IMG/VR virus record: IMGVR_UViG_3300031773_000019
Coordinates: 1-32,090 of that record
Length of the DNA: 32,090 nucleotides
Source of the DNA: a virus
Strand: one strand, 5' to 3'
The notes beneath the pieces are model-generated. The model made no database searches. It was not told where the DNA came from and saw nothing but the letters and a program-made list of their open reading frames with translations. Position 1 is the stretch's first letter; each line of letters begins with the position of its first letter. Below are positions 2,366 to 11,287 of this stretch, piece after piece. A program made the position numbers and the translations under genes.

Positions 2366-4585
2366 TTAAACGCGACCAGCTACTTCTTCAAAGCTAACCC
2401 CAGTTCGGGTAGCAACGAAGGTTAGCGTGACATAATTAATCGACTTCGCAGGCTTCAGGAAGATGTCTGCGCGGAATTCATTATTATCAATAACATCAGG
2501 TGTGTTATTTGTTTCATCACAAATAACAAGGAATCCATAAACTCCCCTCTTCGCTTGAATATCACGAAGATATGGTTCAACAATATTACGGAAACTTGCT
2601 CTTGTTAATTCATCATTGAGTTCAAAGAGTTGAGCTTCAGCAGCTTTCTGCAATGCTTGCTCAACAGTAAGGAACAGACGACGAACATTAATACGGTCAA
2701 ATGCAGATGCATAACCGAGAGCAGTCTTATCACCAAAGAGAAGTGTTCCAATTCCAGGTGTCGTGATAAAAGCATTAACCCTTAGAGGATAAAGAATATC
2801 TCTCTGTGCCTTGGTGGGATTGTATGCAAGTTTAACTGCATTATTAATAACACCACGCTGTTGACCAGCAGGTGAGAACCAAGGATAAGCAACAATATTT
2901 GTGCGAGTCATCAGACCAGCAACGTCAGCATTGGTTGGAATCCAACGGAACTTATTATTAAAGCGATCATAAGTATACTTATAACCAGCATCAAAAATGC
3001 CATAAGAAGTAGACATTAGTGGGCTGAAATACTTAACCAGATTATCCGTCTGAGTAGTAGCGTTAGTAACACCAACCAAATCTGCCCTATGTGGTCCAAC
3101 AGTAGCAACACAATCTTTTCTACTATTTGCTAGAGAAAGGACATAGTTTGCTTTTGCCTGAGAATCTTCTAGGTTAGTGCATCCTGGACCCATAATCAAA
3201 TAATCAACTTCAATTTCATCTTTATTTTCAAATTTACCATAAGATGTAATTAGATCAGAAAGTGCTGCCTTATACCCACCAGCAGCAGAGTAATCAACTC
3301 CCCCACCTAAGGTATAAGTGTTGTTACCTACAGCACTAAAGGTAATTCCTTGTGCATTCTGACCCCAGATTCCATCTGCTGTAGAAATTGGACTATAGGA
3401 AGCAGCATCACCAGCTGTAGTGGTGAATCCAGTTGCTCTTGGAGATGTTCCCCAATACGTGTCTGTTGCTGCAGAAACATTATATCCAGCATAAGTATTA
3501 TCTGAGAAATCAGCCAGATATTGCTTGTAGTAATTCTTTTGAGGAGAATTAACATCTGATACAGAATCAAGTGCTTTAGAAAGACCCAGATGCTTCTCTA
3601 GGATATTACCTTTGATTCCAGTAATATCACCAGTATCATCAACTACAACCACATGCATTCCATCGCCTTTACCACTTCTATTAGTAGTATAGACATTGGA
3701 TGTAGGTCTGGGAGCAATTGACTTCCAATAAGTCGTTGCATTAGTAAGATTTAGAGTTTGAGCATCATACCAATCAGCAATGGCAGACGACGTAGCACCA
3801 ATACCTGTTCCTGTAGAAGTAACACCTGCATTATTAACAAAGTTGAGTGTCTGACTCGCTGCAAATGCATTAGATGTAGTTCCTTCTGCATAATCAATTG
3901 CAGTTTCAGTAGAACCAGCACCAGATGTTTCTACACGAGAAACAATTTTAACATCTACTGATCCATCTGTGGATGCATTAGTAGTAATGCCAGTAATAAT
4001 TCCTTTTAGATAACCAGTGAATTCAGAAGTAGTTCCTGTTCCTGGAATAACTACACTGGCCAATGATGCCGTAACACCAAATCCAATAGTCGCACCTGCT
4101 ACTGCGGGATCAGTGCTACCAATAGTAACTGTTTGATCCGCATAGTTGTCAATAACACATACTTTTAATGTGTTAGCCCATGTACCAGGATCTTTAGCAG
4201 CATAAGTGAAATTAGTAGCCGTATCCCAATTGTTCAAATAATCATCATAGTTCTTAATTTTAGATGCAGTTGTAGAAGCAATGCCAACACCCGCATTTGC
4301 GTTATTGAGTGTTGTTCCATCGGTTCGACATACTTTCAAGACTCCGCCGTATGATAGGAAAGAGGAAGCACTCATCCAATACTCATATTGAGCATCTGTT
4401 GAAATGGGCTTGCCAAATACATTAATTAAATCTTGCTCTGTAGCAACACTAATTGGATCATCAATTGGGCCGAGCGAGAATGGTCCCGCCAGTGCACCAA
4501 TGTTGTCCAATACATTATCAGCTCTTCCTACAGTTAAATCAACCTCCCTGGTTAATACACCAGGAGATAATTGAGGAGTCGCCAT
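2366..4585 (-). CDS. gp18: Tail sheath protein gp18
   Basis: The 739-residue product is the contractile tail sheath subunit; the T4 homologue has 659 residues. The N-terminus (LSPGVLTREVDLT, about residues 6-18, then GALAGPFSLGP) and the C-terminal quarter are the conserved sheath core. The latter includes the DRINVRRLFLTVEQALQKAA segment followed by FRADIFLKPAKSINYVTLTF near the end. The middle (about residues 130-440) is Ser/Thr/Ala/Gly-rich and looks like the variable surface-exposed domains that differ between T4-like phages. The start is supported by a GGAGAAA ribosome binding site about nine bases upstream and a late box 35 bases upstream. It lies between the large terminase and tail tube genes, as in T4. 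High confidence. Confidence 0.97.
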   Translation of the reverse strand: MATPQLSPGVLTREVDLTVGRADNVLDNIGALAGPFSLGPIDDPISVATEQDLINVFGKPISTDAQYEYWMSASSFLSYGGVLKVCRTDGTTLNNANAGVGIASTTASKIKNYDDYLNNWDTATNFTYAAKDPGTWANTLKVCVIDNYADQTVTIGSTDPAVAGATIGFGVTASLASVVIPGTGTTSEFTGYLKGIITGITTNASTDGSVDVKIVSRVETSGAGSTETAIDYAEGTTSNAFAASQTLNFVNNAGVTSTGTGIGATSSAIADWYDAQTLNLTNATTYWKSIAPRPTSNVYTTNRSGKGDGMHVVVVDDTGDITGIKGNILEKHLGLSKALDSVSDVNSPQKNYYKQYLADFSDNTYAGYNVSAATDTYWGTSPRATGFTTTAGDAASYSPISTADGIWGQNAQGITFSAVGNNTYTLGGGVDYSAAGGYKAALSDLITSYGKFENKDEIEVDYLIMGPGCTNLEDSQAKANYVLSLANSRKDCVATVGPHRADLVGVTNATTQTDNLVKYFSPLMSTSYGIFDAGYKYTYDRFNNKFRWIPTNADVAGLMTRTNIVAYPWFSPAGQQRGVINNAVKLAYNPTKAQRDILYPLRVNAFITTPGIGTLLFGDKTALGYASAFDRINVRRLFLTVEQALQKAAEAQLFELNDELTRASFRNIVEPYLRDIQAKRGVYGFLVICDETNNTPDVIDNNEFRADIFLKPAKSINYVTLTFVATRTGVSFEEVAGRV

Positions 4586-4620
4586 GTTCTTTTTCTCCGA
4601 ATCTCAGATTTATCTGAAAT

Positions 4621-4628
4621 TATTTATT
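4621..4628 (-). promoter_or_regulatory. Late promoter -10 box (AATAAATA) for gp18
   Basis: AATAAATA on the minus strand lies in the 54-base gap between gp17 and gp18, the longest gap between genes in the window. It is 35 bases before the sheath ATG. It matches the T4 late box at seven of eight positions and is not fused to the gp17 stop codon. Confidence 0.65.
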
Positions 4629-4639
4629 GTTTACACACT

Positions 4640-6349
4640 TTACATATACTCCCACATATATGATCGATCACCATACTCATCTGTATTCCATGTATTAGGA
4701 CCATCTCTCAATCTATTCAGTCCTTGAGTTCCATCTTCATCAACAAACCACCTATCCCCATCTTTATCGACAAAACTTTTATCATCTAATCCATCACTAA
4801 CAAAACCAAAAGGTGCCATATCTTGTTCAATTTGATTCTTTTGTTCTTCATATAATCTTTTTCTTACATCTTGATCTGTAAGTTCTTTAAAATAATCTTG
4901 AGCAACTAACCATGCAAATATGACAAGACACATTGCAAGGTCATCATTACATCCATCTTCTGCTTCAAATGAATTATTTTTTTGAATAAAAGTAGTCAAT
5001 TCACTCATAATCTCATAATCATTGAATATAAGCTTATCTGTTTCAATTAATGTTTTAAGATTAAGAGATCCTACCTTCTTAACTGTTTTGGACATTTTAA
5101 CTCCTAATTGAGTTTTCTTTCCAGAAAAACCCTGACCCACCACTTGCCCTGCTCTGCCCCTCATCGAGGCCATAAGCAAATTGGGATACTCCATATCATA
5201 ATTTAAAATTGATGCTACCTGATCCCCCACATCATTTACCTCACAAAGAATAAAAGCATCATTATAACTCTTTGCTACTTCATAAATGACACTAGGAAAT
5301 AGCATAGGTTTTATTTCATTATTTCTATATTTCGCAATTACTCTATGAGGAAATTCTGTTATATCAACAATTACAAAAGCAGAGTAATCTTTTACTACTC
5401 CTCGTGCTACATCCACTGTACAAACATAATCATGTCCCTTTAAAGGATCTTCATATACATCTAAACCAGCATTTCTTTTTAGAGGATTCTCATATACTAA
5501 TGTTCTTAACTTACTGGGAGCAATAAGAGTATCAACTGATCCTAAAAATTCACATTCAAACTCAACTTTAAATTGCTGCTCTGATGTATTAGCAATAGTT
5601 TGTTGACGCCACTTATCATCTCTTCCTGGTACTTCCGACCAATGAACATCTGTAGGGATATACTCATTTTTTTGCCGTTCTGCATCATGCCATAAACGGT
5701 AAAAATGATTCATTCCATGAGGCGTTGAGACAATGATGACTTTTGTGCTCTTACCAGAAGTAATAGTAGGATAAACGGAACTAAAGAATGAGTCTGCAAT
5801 ATGGTTCGGAACGAATGCAAATTCATCGAGGAAGAGGATGTTAAACGACATACCTCGGACAGCACTCGCAGATGTAGAAGCTGCCAATATCTTACTGCCA
5901 TTCTCTAACTCCAATGAACCTCTGTTCCATGATAACACACCCTGCTGCATCCATTTAGGAATATTCTCATAGGCAGTCTGTAAACGCCCCAGGAGCTCCC
6001 TAGCAGTTGCTGCTTTGTTTGCTAGTATACCAATATTTACACTATCATTAAAAAGTAAATAATGCAACAAATAAGATATAACAGTTGTAGACTTACCCGT
6101 CTGACGTGGCATCTTACAAATGTTAAATCTATTATCGTGAAAATTTGATATTAATTTCTTTTGAAAAGTATAGGGTTCAAAAGGCATTAAACCATGATCC
6201 AGAGTAACAATTTTTACATGCTGTTCTGCAAAATAAACTGGATCCTCTCTACATGCCATAAACTCAAGAATTTGGTCTTGAGTAAAGTTAATAGCAGTAT
6301 TCGCTTTTTTTAAATTCGGATTGCCTAGATAGATGTCATCAATAGCCAT
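4640..6349 (-). CDS. gp17: Large terminase subunit gp17 (packaging ATPase and nuclease)
   Basis: This 569-residue protein is the DNA packaging motor; T4 gp17 has 610. The N-terminal ATPase shows a Walker A loop PRQTGKST (residues 81-88, Lys86), a Walker B strand ILFLDEF (171-177, Asp175 and catalytic Glu176) and a coupling motif STPHG (208-212). The C-terminal RNase H-like nuclease shows three acidic residues in the expected order: Asp313 in TVDVARG, Glu370 in LCEVND, and Asp469/Asp470 in NDDLAM. All key residues are present, so the enzyme should be active. The last 60 residues form an acidic tail with two similar short units (SFVDKDGDRW and WFVDEDG). The start has an AGGAAA ribosome binding site that overlaps the stop of the small gene upstream, suggesting translational coupling. 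Unlike in T4, it is separated from gp16 by four other genes. Confidence 0.98.
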   Translation of the reverse strand: MAIDDIYLGNPNLKKANTAINFTQDQILEFMACREDPVYFAEQHVKIVTLDHGLMPFEPYTFQKKLISNFHDNRFNICKMPRQTGKSTTVISYLLHYLLFNDSVNIGILANKAATARELLGRLQTAYENIPKWMQQGVLSWNRGSLELENGSKILAASTSASAVRGMSFNILFLDEFAFVPNHIADSFFSSVYPTITSGKSTKVIIVSTPHGMNHFYRLWHDAERQKNEYIPTDVHWSEVPGRDDKWRQQTIANTSEQQFKVEFECEFLGSVDTLIAPSKLRTLVYENPLKRNAGLDVYEDPLKGHDYVCTVDVARGVVKDYSAFVIVDITEFPHRVIAKYRNNEIKPMLFPSVIYEVAKSYNDAFILCEVNDVGDQVASILNYDMEYPNLLMASMRGRAGQVVGQGFSGKKTQLGVKMSKTVKKVGSLNLKTLIETDKLIFNDYEIMSELTTFIQKNNSFEAEDGCNDDLAMCLVIFAWLVAQDYFKELTDQDVRKRLYEEQKNQIEQDMAPFGFVSDGLDDKSFVDKDGDRWFVDEDGTQGLNRLRDGPNTWNTDEYGDRSYMWEYM

Positions 6350-6358
6350 AATAATTTC

Positions 6359-6544
6359 CTACATCATTTCTCCAAATAAATGTTTTTTGTCGTGTTCGAG
6401 AGTTTTTCTTGTCATATCTAATAGTTTTTGTAAATTCTCTGCTTTCTTTCTTAATTCTTCGATCTCTTTATCGTTGTCCTCCAATCTGGAGGAGTGGTTC
6501 CCCTGGGTCATAGTCCGATACTTGGTAGCCCCACAATTTAGCAT
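6359..6544 (-). CDS. Small coiled-coil protein upstream of gp17
   Basis: I do not recognise this short protein (61 residues, or 50 if the ATG at 6509-6511 is used). Residues from about 22 on are a charged heptad-like helix rich in Glu, Lys and Leu (EIEELRKKAENLQKLL), typical of a small coiled coil. It overlaps the end of the preceding 109-residue gene in another frame. Its TAG stop is part of the ribosome binding site for gp17 (TAGGAAATTATTATG), which argues that it is translated and coupled to gp17. The upstream start has an AGGAAAG about nine bases before it; the downstream start has no clear ribosome binding site. A helper or regulator of the terminase is only a guess from position. Confidence 0.55.
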   Translation of the reverse strand: MLNCGATKYRTMTQGNHSSRLEDNDKEIEELRKKAENLQKLLDMTRKTLEHDKKHLFGEMM

Positions 6545-6797
6545 CAGGATATACTTTCCTTACTTGATCCTGTACTTCCTTGCGAGATGGTTTTTTGACT
6601 TGTGGGAAAAACATTTGTACCATATAGTTTCTGCCCCTCCAAGCCAATTGGATGGATATTATATTTCCTACTTTCTGATAATTAGGCAAACGTGTTGCTT
6701 CAATTACTTTTGAAGGCTTAAGAGGTTCTGGAGTTATTACATCAATAACTTCTAAAAAAGGATTACCCTTAGCATCTTCAATTGATACACTTTTCAT
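6468..6797 (-). CDS. Conserved hypothetical protein, 109 residues, before gp17
   Basis: I cannot assign a function to this 109-residue soluble protein. It has no signal peptide or membrane segment. The N-terminal half contains ITPEPLKPSKVIEATR (about residues 21-36). The central beta-like part, IISIQLAWRGRNYMVQMFFP, looks like two strands, and a basic stretch follows (KKPSRKEVQDQVRKVYP). It reads like a small folded alpha/beta domain. It is the first gene of a three-gene block (this gene, the small coiled coil, gp17), and a late promoter box lies 23 bases before its ATG. The ribosome binding site is weak. Co-transcription with gp17 is the only hint that it may act in packaging. Confidence 0.75.
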   Translation of the reverse strand: MKSVSIEDAKGNPFLEVIDVITPEPLKPSKVIEATRLPNYQKVGNIISIQLAWRGRNYMVQMFFPQVKKPSRKEVQDQVRKVYPDAKLWGYQVSDYDPGEPLLQIGGQR

Positions 6798-6820: not shown

Positions 6821-6828
6821 TATTTATT
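6821..6828 (-). promoter_or_regulatory. Late promoter -10 box (AATAAATA) for the gp17 block
   Basis: AATAAATA on the minus strand overlaps the TAA stop of the DUF192 gene (6827-6829): the sequence reads TAATAAATA, with stop and box sharing two bases. It lies 23 bases before the 109-residue gene and should serve that gene, the small coiled-coil gene and gp17. Confidence 0.6.
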
Positions 6829-7786
6829 ATTTCTTAAGTGTTAAAATCTGATCTCCTTCAAATACACTATTTTCTTCAAACCATCCTCTATTAACTTCCA
6901 AAGCATAAAGAACATCACCATCAGAATAAACTGGTTGTAATGTATAGGGATCTAACTCTTTTATACTCTCAATTATACCATCTTCTTTAATAAATGCAAT
7001 ATCCAAAGAAATTCTTGTATCCTTCATATGAAAAGATTTTTGACTAATTTCATCAAAAATAAAAAGCATCCCACTATCATAATCCAAACTTTCCCTAAAC
7101 ATCAAACCCAAATTAAATTCTGTCTGCGTTTGAGGCACTTCAAGATTAAGTGAAAGAGATCTTACTCCTTCACTAACACCGCCACCATTACCGTTGCCAT
7201 TCCCACCGTTACCATTGCTAGAATGGCCATTTCCATTTCCATTCCCGTTATTGGACCCATTTTTCTTTTCCCCCTCATCTTCATCTTTTTCTAACCATCC
7301 CCTAGAACCTATATGATATCCTTGAGGGATTTTTTTACACTTCTTATCTTGATAACAATAATAGGATCCTGCCGGACAGGTCTTATGCATATGATCTTCT
7401 CTCAATCCCTGAAATTGCTGATAAGTTCTTCTCATTGCCCTAGCCGTCCTTTCTGCTTCGATGTTTACAAATTCTTTTGATGCATCTACCATTTGGTCAA
7501 TAGATGGCCCCTCACTGGCCTTATCCAATTCTAATTTCATCACAGGATATATATTAGAAAATCTCCACTTATTTAAACCTGGTTCTGCAGGAGTTTGATA
7601 TCCCTGAGCTAAAAGGTCATCATTAATATTAGGAAAGAAGAATTTATCAAACCCAGCGACAGGTCCAGAAGCGGTTGCATTAGCACCAAAACCGGAATTG
7701 GTTGGAGGATTGCCTGTGGGTTCTCCAGCAACATTAGCGCTCATTGTAGGCTCAGCTTCATTTAAAAATTCTTTAAATGGTTTCAT
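6827..7786 (-). CDS. DUF192-domain protein with T4-like capsid-targeting N-terminus
   Basis: The product has 319 residues. I chose the ATG at 7784-7786, not the in-frame ATG 57 bases upstream. It follows the stop of the previous gene by two bases, has a GGATGG ribosome binding site, and begins MKPFKEFLNEA. That peptide closely resembles the T4 internal-protein targeting sequence MKTYQEFIAEA, with an LNE/A junction that fits the gp21 protease rule (Leu/Ile-x-Glu). Next come a Gly/Pro/Asn-rich segment, a helical part (about 95-130), a three-Cys module (CPAGSYYC and KKCKKIP, about 137-154), a Gly/Asn linker (about 176-203) and a C-terminal DUF192 domain (about 209-316). The DUF192 domain is marked by GLMFRESL, GMLFIFDE, FHMKDTRISLDIAFI and ALEVNRGW. 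The DUF192 function is unknown. An internal head protein is my inference. Confidence 0.85.
   Translation of the reverse strand: MKPFKEFLNEAEPTMSANVAGEPTGNPPTNSGFGANATASGPVAGFDKFFFPNINDDLLAQGYQTPAEPGLNKWRFSNIYPVMKLELDKASEGPSIDQMVDASKEFVNIEAERTARAMRRTYQQFQGLREDHMHKTCPAGSYYCYQDKKCKKIPQGYHIGSRGWLEKDEDEGEKKNGSNNGNGNGNGHSSNGNGGNGNGNGGGVSEGVRSLSLNLEVPQTQTEFNLGLMFRESLDYDSGMLFIFDEISQKSFHMKDTRISLDIAFIKEDGIIESIKELDPYTLQPVYSDGDVLYALEVNRGWFEENSVFEGDQILTLKK
7178..7261 (-). repeat. Gly/Asn low-complexity linker coding repeat
   Basis: About 28 codons alternate Gly and Asn, with a few Ser and His (NGNGNG, NGNGGNGNG). The DNA is an imperfect GGNAAY repeat. It separates the three-Cys module from the DUF192 domain and probably forms a flexible linker. 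Such repeats can change length by slippage. Confidence 0.8.
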
Positions 7787-7788
7787 AA

Positions 7789-9798
7789 TTAACCATCCAA
7801 TGCTACAGTAAGACCAAGAGTCATACCTGGTAGAGTCTGCCAAGAAGATCCATTATATACTTGTAATTTGCCATCAGTACTATTAAAGATCATTGCACCT
7901 TGAGTTACAGTAAGAGCATCCCTCTGTGTAGTATTTAGGACAGGAGGGTAAAATGCACCAGTTGTTCCAACTGTTACAATTTCTGGTGCCATAATCTTGC
8001 CGGTGGTGGCATTTAAAGTAATTCCCGCACCAACATTTACTATATTATTAGTACCATCAACCGTTACTGAAGTTTTACCAACAGTTAAAATACCAGTAAT
8101 TCTAGCATCACCATTTACAACTAGATCTTCAGTAAAGAATCCAGTATCCACACCAACATGCATTTCTGCCGCTGTTGCTATTCCAGTAATATTCCAATTT
8201 CTTGCAACTGCTTCATCATATTCAAGATCTCCACTAACATTTAAATTACCAGTGACTGTAGCATTTCCTTCAACATATAAAGCACTATCAGCTCTAGCGG
8301 TCGTAGCAATACCTACATTAGATAAAGTATGAATACCAACACTATCATGAATCCACGCTGTACTTCCACTACTTACGGTAGAAAATTTAAATTTCTTACC
8401 GCTTGGTTGATTTAAATCAACAGTAAGGAACATTCCATCATAAGCACTAATATTAGTGGCAATACCAGCAATATCATCCAAATATTGTAACTCTACTGCT
8501 CCCCCACCGCCGATAGAAGCAATTTGAGTTTGTATTCTATTAACAAATAATCTATAATGCTCTGTAAGATCTTTTAAGGTTGCAAATTTTTGATCTAAAG
8601 GTGCAAGAGGATCTTTTGATACCCCAAGATCAGTGTAAGTTGGTGGATTATCAGTAAGGTCTTCTTTTAATTCCTGTTGAGTTTCTTTTAATTCACCAAC
8701 AATCTTATATAATTCAGCAATATTAATACTTTGTTCTTCTCTCCTTTCTTCTAAATGGGATACATCCTTTTTCAAATCTTTAAGAGGAGCGTCATAGTAT
8801 TTCACTTTAGGAAGATTGGTAATTTCTTCTTTTAATCCCTCAAAATACTTTGTAAGAGTTTTATTCTCCTCATAATTTTTAACATTAAAATCAAGTATTT
8901 GATTCTCAATATTCTGCTTTGTTTCATTAAGCTTGCTAAGGACTTGCTTCTTTAACTTTCTATCATCATCTTTGAATTGTGTATGATGATCCCAAATCCT
9001 TATAGCAGCTTCTTTTAACTCTTTAAATATTTTTTCTTTTGTTTTTTTAATATCATCTTTTACTTCATCAATTTGTACTCTTTTTTCAAAATCTTTAATA
9101 TCAAGACTTTCTGTAAGATCATGAATATCAGCATCAAATTTAGATGCCATATCCTTTATCTTATCACCTACTTCAACAAAATCCTCATCAATTACACTAA
9201 ATGTTTTTCCAATCCATGAAAAATCAGGAACCTCATTAACTTCATTAACCCATTTAGGAAACTGGGGGATCTCTGCTCTTACATTATCAATTGCTTCACA
9301 AATTGCTTCTATCTCTTTATCATAATATTTTACTTCAGGTAAATTAACTACTTCCTGACGAAGTAAATCAACCCTATCCTCAATATTTGTTACTTGTTCA
9401 TCATAATACTTTACTTCTGGAAGATCTCTTATCTCTTCCCTTACAAGATCAATCTGTTCACATATTGATTCTACTTCATGATCATAATATTTTACTTCTG
9501 GAATACCATTTTTAATCTCTTCAACTTGTTCAGCAAGTTGTTTTAACTCTTCATCATAATATTTAATTTCAGGAACTTTTGGTATATCCCTTCTTACTGC
9601 ATTAATTAAATGCAATATTTCTGTAAGATCCTCTGCCGTTTCTTCTGATACAGGTTCTTCTATTGTCTCTTCTACAATATCTTCCTCTTCCTTCTCAATG
9701 AACTCTTCAACCGAAGGTAAATTCTCTTCTTTTATAACCTCATCGACTGGTGGTAACTCCTCAATGAAGTCATCTATCGACGGTAATTGGTCCGACAT
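7789..9798 (-). CDS. Coiled-coil/fiber-like virion structural protein between gp16 and gp17
   Basis: The 669-residue product has three parts. Residues 1-60 are very acidic and hold three copies of an LPS-V/I-acidic-FI motif. Residues 60-430 are long charged helices with five copies of P-x-VKYYD (residues 76-82, 100-106, 127-133, 154-160, 330-336); the first four recur every 24-27 residues. Residues 430-669 are Gly/Thr/Val-rich beta repeats typical of phage fibers (YVEGNATVTGNLNVSGDL, then VVNGDARITGILTVG), ending in TTQRDAL..GAMIFNSTDGKLQVYNGSSW, a motif common in tail-fiber ends. This suggests a trimeric stalk with a beta tip, such as a neck whisker or short fiber. It is not recognisable as T4 fibritin. 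The start has a weak ribosome binding site and lies 42 bases after a late box. Confidence 0.85.
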   Translation of the reverse strand: MSDQLPSIDDFIEELPPVDEVIKEENLPSVEEFIEKEEEDIVEETIEEPVSEETAEDLTEILHLINAVRRDIPKVPEIKYYDEELKQLAEQVEEIKNGIPEVKYYDHEVESICEQIDLVREEIRDLPEVKYYDEQVTNIEDRVDLLRQEVVNLPEVKYYDKEIEAICEAIDNVRAEIPQFPKWVNEVNEVPDFSWIGKTFSVIDEDFVEVGDKIKDMASKFDADIHDLTESLDIKDFEKRVQIDEVKDDIKKTKEKIFKELKEAAIRIWDHHTQFKDDDRKLKKQVLSKLNETKQNIENQILDFNVKNYEENKTLTKYFEGLKEEITNLPKVKYYDAPLKDLKKDVSHLEERREEQSINIAELYKIVGELKETQQELKEDLTDNPPTYTDLGVSKDPLAPLDQKFATLKDLTEHYRLFVNRIQTQIASIGGGGAVELQYLDDIAGIATNISAYDGMFLTVDLNQPSGKKFKFSTVSSGSTAWIHDSVGIHTLSNVGIATTARADSALYVEGNATVTGNLNVSGDLEYDEAVARNWNITGIATAAEMHVGVDTGFFTEDLVVNGDARITGILTVGKTSVTVDGTNNIVNVGAGITLNATTGKIMAPEIVTVGTTGAFYPPVLNTTQRDALTVTQGAMIFNSTDGKLQVYNGSSWQTLPGMTLGLTVALDG
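9253..9573 (-). repeat. Four tandem 24-27-residue KYYD coiled-coil units
   Basis: Each unit reads roughly P-E-V-K-Y-Y-D followed by about 19 charged helical residues of the type EVESICEQIDLVREEIRDL. Spacing between KYYD motifs is 24, 27 and 27 residues. A fifth isolated copy lies near 8788-8814. The DNA carries the matching ATCATAATATTTTAC-like string on the plus strand in each unit. Confidence 0.85.
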
Positions 9799-10262: not shown

Positions 10263-11287
10263 ATAACAGTTCCACTAAATCCAAAATCATCACCTTCTAC
10301 AACCATAGCATTATCAGCAGTAGTAATGGACTTAATAGTTGCTCCTTTTACATGATTGGCAATGGTAGTTCCATCTTGTCCTCTTTCAACAGTAACTTTA
10401 TTACCTGTCTTAGACTTAACAAGCATTTCTTCACCATCAACATCAATATAAACATTATTAATCCCACTGACTGTGATATTGGTAGCATCATCAACAGTTA
10501 ATACTCTTGGTACAGGCTTACCATCTACAGTAATCAGATCTTCCGCCAATTGAGTAACAATACTATCATCATAATCTTTAAGTGCTCTTGGTTCAACTGA
10601 ATATGTAATATCTCTGGTGGTAGACTTGGAATCTCCCGCAAGATACCTGACGCTGGCCTTTTTGATAATATCGGATGTTGCACCAGAAACAGGACCAAAG
10701 AGATAAGTTTTTGCAGTAAATCTTAGTGTATAATATAGAACTCTTCGTGTATTAAAATCTCCATCATAATCATCCTGCATTGTTATATTTTCAAGAATGA
10801 TAGGAATATCTCTTTTTTCTTTTATAGTATTAACCAATTCTACAGTAACATTATAGGATGGTTGAAAATAAGGAAGAATCTGCTCTACAATCTGTAATGC
10901 ATCCTCATTCAACTTACACATAATAGCAAGTTCAAATTGCATATTATAAGGAACAGGCATATATGCCTTTTTCTCATCAGGAGTATCCGAACTAGGATTT
11001 TGTACAACGAATTGTTGAGTAGTAGTTACTTTTCTAGATGGATCATAAGTCATTCCCGTGAATTCAAATGACATTCTTGGGAGAGTAATCATTGTAGATT
11101 GATTTAAATCCGGAGACTGTGTTAATCTAGCTAAGAATTTTTGAGTAGGTCCATAAGACAAAGGAACCTTAGTAACACTTAAGGTATTATCTGAAGAATC
11201 AGTATGAGTAATTGAAATATTATTAAAGAGAGTACCAAAAGAAATAATGGTTCTCCTCAAAATTTCGTTATAAAAATATTCAAACAT
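10259..11287 (-). CDS. gp15: Tail completion/sheath stabiliser protein gp15
   Basis: The 342-residue protein matches T4 gp15 (272 residues), which caps the finished tail as a hexamer and binds the neck. Diagnostic segments are the start MFEYFYNEILRRTI, compared with MFGYFYNSSFRRY in T4, and QIVEQILPYFQPSYNVT (about residues 132-148), which is nearly identical to T4. The DYDGDFNTRRVLYYTLRFTAKTYLFGP stretch follows at about 171-197. The C-terminal 80 residues are an extra beta-rich region (VDDATNITVSGINNVYIDVDG onward) not found in T4. The start has a GGAAC ribosome binding site and a late box 21 bases upstream. It is coupled to gp16 by a four-base overlap. Confidence 0.95.
   Translation of the reverse strand: MFEYFYNEILRRTIISFGTLFNNISITHTDSSDNTLSVTKVPLSYGPTQKFLARLTQSPDLNQSTMITLPRMSFEFTGMTYDPSRKVTTTQQFVVQNPSSDTPDEKKAYMPVPYNMQFELAIMCKLNEDALQIVEQILPYFQPSYNVTVELVNTIKEKRDIPIILENITMQDDYDGDFNTRRVLYYTLRFTAKTYLFGPVSGATSDIIKKASVRYLAGDSKSTTRDITYSVEPRALKDYDDSIVTQLAEDLITVDGKPVPRVLTVDDATNITVSGINNVYIDVDGEEMLVKSKTGNKVTVERGQDGTTIANHVKGATIKSITTADNAMVVEGDDFGFSGTVI

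Follow-up and report, generated by a model that had tools for sequence, protein, structure and literature searches.

Locus and gene organisation

The window analysed here is a whole stretch of 32,090 nucleotides, the 32-kb IMG/VR virus record IMGVR_UViG_3300031773_000019. It belongs to a T4-like cyanophage and matches Kyanoviridae, e.g. S-SM2 and SynMITS9220M01. The late genes follow a T4-like order: gp13, gp14, gp15, gp16, a fibre-like gene, a DUF192 gene, a 109-aa gene, gp17, gp18, gp19 and gp20. The phage's own gp21, gp22 and gp23 lie outside the contig; gp21 is present in relatives (e.g. locus L029). The stretch from gp16 to gp17 is a known variable region in Kyanoviridae relatives, and the DUF192 gene sits there, beside head and tail genes (Table 1).

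The DUF192 ORF opens with an ATG 2 nt past the stop codon of the preceding gene. Its homologues begin at the same Met; an alternative TTG start (to 7843) is possible, without conservation. The N-terminus encoded from 7786 on the minus strand is MKPFKEFLNEAEPTMSANVAGEP... The upstream fibre-like protein has N-terminal repeats of its own (LPSIDDFIEE, LPPVDEVIKEE and LPSVEEFIEKE), with similar ones in SynMITS9220M01_093.

Table 1. Positions of the features discussed, in the window and in cyanophage S-CREM2 (arrow, predicted scissile bond).
Feature	Record	Position	Strand	Remarks
gp17 large terminase	window	4640-6349	minus	bounds the gp16-gp17 variable region downstream; synteny with S-SM2
Next gene, 109 aa, MFFP module	window	6468-6797	minus	own L/I/V-x-E site, KVIE33↓A34, at module start
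CTS-tagged DUF192 ORF, 319 aa	window	6827-7786	minus	codons 6830-7786, stop 6827-6829
DUF192 domain, aa 214-314	window	6845-7147	minus	PF02643
Gly/Asn-rich linker, aa 175-207	window	7166-7264	minus	from sequence
Cys-rich module, aa 129-169, CPAGSYYCYQDKKCKKIPQGYHIG	window	7280-7402	minus	phrog_30733
Conserved region, aa 40-128, QGYQTPAEPG..WRFSNIYPVMKL..SIDQMVDASKEF	window	7403-7669	minus	
Segment aa 11-48, AEPTMSANVAG...GFGANATASGPVAGFDK	window	7643-7756	minus	like cyanophage gp23 mature N-terminal arm
Predicted prohead-protease site, L8-N9-E10↓A11	window	7754-7765	minus	L/I-x-E rule and cyanophage gp23 sites
Predicted capsid-targeting propeptide MKPFKEFLNE, aa 1-10	window	7757-7786	minus	F4/F7 targeting, L8/E10 processing
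Upstream gene, fibre-like protein, 669 aa	window	7789-9798	minus	
gp6, SAM hydrolase	S-CREM2 (OR473000)	3837-5081		tag MKDFDSFLEE
gp13	S-CREM2 (OR473000)	10310-10546		tag MKDLHSFLTE
gp154, cytidylyltransferase	S-CREM2 (OR473000)	124608-125468		tag MKNFSSFLTE

The DUF192 protein is modular. Its region 40-128 was seen in marine phages only, in the collections searched; AlphaFold models it with low confidence (17 sequences, pLDDT 60, pTM 0.26). The Cys-rich module stands alone behind the N-terminal peptide in L127, L146 and L152, among the IMG/VR matches listed. The C-terminal domain is a full-length DUF192 (PF02643, COG1430), matched with an E-value of 6.3e-26 and 90.8 bits against a gathering cut-off of 27, over positions 2-94 of the 96 of the profile. 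Its PDB relatives, 3pjy and 3m7a, are short single-domain chains, one of them named a signal peptide protein, whereas in the phage late-gene product studied here it forms the C-terminal part. A scan of genome contigs confirmed no cellular relative of the domain. DUF192-like matches also occur in the human gut phage records MT835492, MT835470 and MT835876 (E 1e-7 to 2e-9).

A T4-type leader with a predicted cleavage site

On the minus strand, positions 7786 to 7754 read ATG AAA CCA TTT AAA GAA TTT TTA AAT GAA GCT, so that the product begins MKPFKEFLNEA, as the first-pass annotation of the window had stated. In T4, the first ten residues of IPIII are enough for packaging; targeting acts mainly through residues 4 and 7 of the leader and processing through residues 8 and 10, and gp21 cleaves after L/I-x-E (PMC9026906). 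The DUF192 protein has aromatic residues at positions 4 and 7, Leu at 8 and Glu at 10; in T4, Asp at position 10 prevents processing and leaves targeting intact. The DUF192 protein shares with T4 IPI-III the ten-residue pattern M-K-x-[FY]-x-x-F-[LI]-x-E followed by A, and the earlier remark that LNE before Ala fits the gp21 rule holds at L8, E10 and A11 (PMC9026906). Also in common are diverse cargo behind one leader and a T4-like phage with gp21, given the gene order from gp13 to gp20 and gp21 in relatives.

The differences lie in the cargo: the DUF192 protein carries extra modules, its post-cut sequence is gp23-like, and its packaging and injection are here predicted. T4 internal proteins are basic, whereas the predicted mature DUF192 protein (309 aa, pI 4.83) is acidic and thus departs from the small basic type.

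The same annotation had given MKTYQEFIAEA as the start of IPI, IPII and IPIII alike. The T4 ipII leader was indeed found with that sequence in our collection, similar leaders being present in 242 phage records. The statement was slightly overstated for the three proteins together, because IPII and IPIII have the same propeptide, to which that of IPI is only similar (PMC9026906). Leaders of T4 type are named in that review just for the close T4 relatives T2 and T6 (PMC9026906).

Conservation of the tag among homologues

Across 80 related IMG/VR loci, the tag is kept in close homologues while the remainder of the protein varies. Beside MKPFKEFLNEA we find MKSFRNFIKEA, MKPFKNFLKEA, MKSFKQFLKEA, MKSFKKYLKEA, MKHYKDFIKET, MKSFSQFIRES, MKSFKQFLAEQ, MKSLKEYLEEA, MKTFKQFIKEA and MKTLKQFLKET, the last as in S-SM2 gp108. 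Position 4 of the tagged homologues is aromatic or Leu and position 7 is F or Y, with L/I-8 and E-10 in every one. In AG-345-O18 and S-SKS1 the MKxF part is lost and L-x-E before S/T-PTN is retained; for S-SKS1, a siphovirus assignment was abandoned, gp17 and a tail sheath being present. A 22-aa tblastn query proved too weak for the tag and matched mainly S-SM2 and gp23.

The modules behind the tag are arranged variously. L040 has the tag, the site and DUF192 with little over a dozen residues between, in the usual gene order; L021-L024 are without the Cys module; L036, L030 and L034 encode the tag and the aa 40-128 region in one gene and DUF192 in the next. Homologues lacking the peptide had been named beforehand as grounds against the reading, and they do exist: the tag is present in 14 of the 75 phage DUF192 ORFs (some duplicates) and absent from 61. 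Some of the latter are cut by contig ends, however, and several loci have a separate tagged gene directly upstream of the DUF192 gene. With just 14 of 75 ORFs carrying the tag, DUF192 occurs independently of it in these phages.

P-TIM68 gp111 (L007, 5128-6249), a longer protein, has an internal copy of the tag, NMKNFTSFMEASKTCPKGKYYC, right before a Cys module; the protein may be cut internally at this copy.

The tag is not a product of chance. Just ten residues are in play, and a lysine-rich amphipathic N-terminus could resemble the T4 peptide by coincidence, an explanation that we consider highly improbable. From the residue frequencies of the contig, the relaxed motif M[KR]x[FYWL]xx[FYW][LIVMF]xE is expected about 2e-5 times per gene; it occurs nine times in 726 phage ORFs of at least 60 aa, each time at the start Met, and at no other Met of these ORFs (3,430 Mets in all). 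In 11 phage records, a degenerate DNA pattern matched 14 times and its reversed form once; all except one of the 14 matches coincide with a plausible gene start. The tag is moreover conserved though the homologues are only 40-60% identical further on. Altogether, homologue conservation and motif statistics largely exclude a chance likeness.

Resemblance of the predicted mature N-terminus to gp23

T4 gp23 is cleaved at FLTE65↓A66, a place corresponding to the predicted cuts of cyanophage gp23: LTE↓AAPTM, LME↓APTN and LAE↓APTN, followed by GFG..AT..GPVAGFDPVL. Past its own predicted cut, the DUF192 protein reads E↓AEPTMSAN...GFGANATASGPVAGFDK, a segment with the stretch GPVAGFDK. An HMM of five gp23 arms matches it with an E-value of 2.4e-4 among 25,119 ORF frames, and gave no match below E 1 on reversed decoys. 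The junction thus resembles the head-protease site of relatives both before and after the scissile bond. The same HMM also matches a small-protein family, of which one member, S-CREM2 gp160, was detected in virions by mass spectrometry.

This comparison is with gp23 of related phages. What is common is the L-x-E↓A junction and the stretch PTN/PTM...GPVAGFD that follows it in cyanophages; in contrast, the gp23 propeptide has 52-65 residues against the ten of the targeting type here, and no capsid fold was found in the DUF192 protein.

In L029 (4439-5317), which has gp20-21-22 on the upstream side and gp17 on the downstream side, a gp23 propeptide is fused in frame to the DUF192 protein. A natural propeptide swap was rejected: the order gp20-21-22-fusion-109aa-gp17 indicates a chimeric assembly, probably through DNA common to gp23 and the DUF192 gene. 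Because of this gene order, the fusion is taken to indicate common sequence and nothing more.

The tag on other proteins and in virions

In a scan of IMG/VR, the pattern MKxFxxF[x]xEA matched at least 80 contigs. At least 79 ORFs with a length of 60 aa or more begin with the motif at true gene starts, and at least 33 of them match the PHROG cytidyltransferase family. Among the matches listed, other tagged ORFs correspond to Pfam GNAT, a zeta-toxin-like kinase, glucosaminidase, DPBB and DUF5661, and T4 core genes are present in 54 of 80 excerpts.

By eye, again among the matches listed, tagged proteins of further kinds can be recognised: in L130 an ADP-ribosyltransferase-type protein (3736-4149) and a GNAT acetyltransferase (4149-4529; the set has one GNAT Pfam match), in L166 a second ADP-ribosyltransferase-like protein (1211-1858) and in L155 a HAD-type phosphatase (519-1094). 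They are possible additional head cargo.

The first-pass annotation had suggested searching related phages for such starts and asking whether they lie on head-packaged proteins. Four cyanophages with published virion proteomes, S-CREM2, S-SCSM1, S-SM1 and S-SZBM1, were compared. The whole genome of S-CREM2 has an MK-type tag on gp6, gp13 and gp154, all three detected by mass spectrometry (PMC10665884). In S-SCSM1, the tagged NMNAT was detected and the tagged small protein gp30 was not detected in the virion proteome (PMC9602691). Tagged T4-GC190 of S-SM1, searched with the strict pattern only, was detected (PMC3037559); tagged small proteins 191 and 192 of S-SZBM1 are absent from the list of 30 detected proteins (PMC9146016). 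In the four phages, detection thus covers five of eight tagged proteins versus 1.5 expected (P about 0.007); since the cytidylyltransferase recurs, families were also counted once, which leaves three of five (P about 0.04). S-PM2 has no tag match and Syn9 has one.

A peptide common on non-virion enzymes would have spoken against a packaging signal. The commonest tagged enzyme, the cytidylyltransferase/NMNAT (T4-GC190), is on the contrary repeatedly detected in virions, namely of S-SM1, S-SCSM1 and S-CREM2. It carries the tag as MKSFFQFLSEA (in S-SM2), MKSFLQFLKEA, MKNFSSFLTEA or MKKFSAFLNEA and differs from the DUF192 protein in its enzyme domain and genome position. Enzymes such as NMNAT and SAM hydrolase have been found repeatedly in cyanophage particles, and the authors of the S-SCSM1 and S-CREM2 proteomes left undecided whether this reflects packaging or contamination (PMC9602691, PMC10665884). 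A T4-type tag on just such particle enzymes argues for packaging, and would make head cargo predictable from sequence alone.

Altogether, the residues critical in T4, conservation among homologues, the post-cut match to the gp23 site of relatives and the virion detection of other tagged proteins support the original proposal of a T4-like targeting peptide with a gp21-type site on the DUF192 protein.

Predicted delivery of the DUF192 protein

We think it likely that MKPFKEFLNE is a T4-type propeptide and the DUF192 protein a cleaved head cargo. Through its aromatic residues at positions 4 and 7, the propeptide would bind the scaffold core and bring the protein into the prohead, where the phage gp21 would cut after Glu10 and remove ten residues; it is by this entry and cut that the protein would become head cargo. 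The mature form would begin AEPTMSAN, like the mature gp23 N-terminus, would most likely be held in the capsid until infection and would probably be ejected with the DNA. What we observe is the peptide, its conservation, the likeness of its site and a statistical link to virion proteins of relatives; we infer the packaging, cleavage and ejection of this protein, as well as any role of DUF192. In T4, the injected IP1-3 act as inhibitors of GmrSD restriction enzymes (PMC12373910); a role against host defence or in early modification of the host can thus reasonably be guessed at, but no more. In this lineage, DUF192 would be placed among proteins likely delivered at the start of infection.

The protein could instead enter the prohead and be cut, yet remain there to line the head or form part of the core, held to the inner shell by its gp23-like arm and not ejected. 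The resemblance of the segment past the cut to the mature gp23 arm is in line with this, as is the acidity of the mature protein, but T4 proteins with the tag are ejected (PMC9026906, PMC12373910) and other tagged cargoes are enzymes (SAM hydrolase, NMNAT) without obvious structural use; we hold such a lining role to be rather unlikely. More improbable still is that the peptide binds scaffold or assembly partners of a tail or fibre-associated protein and is not a head-packaging signal. The DUF192 gene does adjoin a fibre-like gene, and S-SCSM1 gp29, which has the Cys module in common, is associated with virions although its N-terminus bears no tag; against this, non-structural enzymes in other gene neighbourhoods carry the tag as well, and the cleavage site in it corresponds to the one at which the head protease cuts gp23.

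Beyond cleaved and ejected DUF192 cargo, we tentatively entertain a broader possibility for marine T4-like phages: a general ten-residue capsid-delivery code, recognisable from sequence and with or without a gp23-like arm, through which many unrelated cargoes (NMNAT, SAM hydrolase, kinases, acetyltransferase and DUF192) would be brought into the head and injected, and multi-module late proteins would be cut in a polyprotein-like manner at protease sites on module borders.

T4 capsid targeting is already known; what appears new, within the open-access literature, is how the tag is spread among cyanophages, its use on a DUF192 protein and the likeness of the adjoining arm to gp23. There, a search joining capsid targeting and cyanophage returned a T4 review alone, and the titles and abstracts found for DUF192 and phage held nothing bearing on virions.

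The MFFP module

Positions 6696-6707 on the minus strand lie at the border of the MFFP module, whose pattern is R-[LMVI]-P...GN...MFFP and which has homologues in L002, L003, L004, L030, L049, L180 and others. A Glu precedes the module in all 29 distinct sequences and L/I/V stands at P3 in 28, while the sequence further upstream differs. The border looks like a head-protease site, hinting at polyprotein processing; alternatively, it is a conserved domain start. On visual inspection, S-SCSM1 gp30 has a module of this kind behind its tag.
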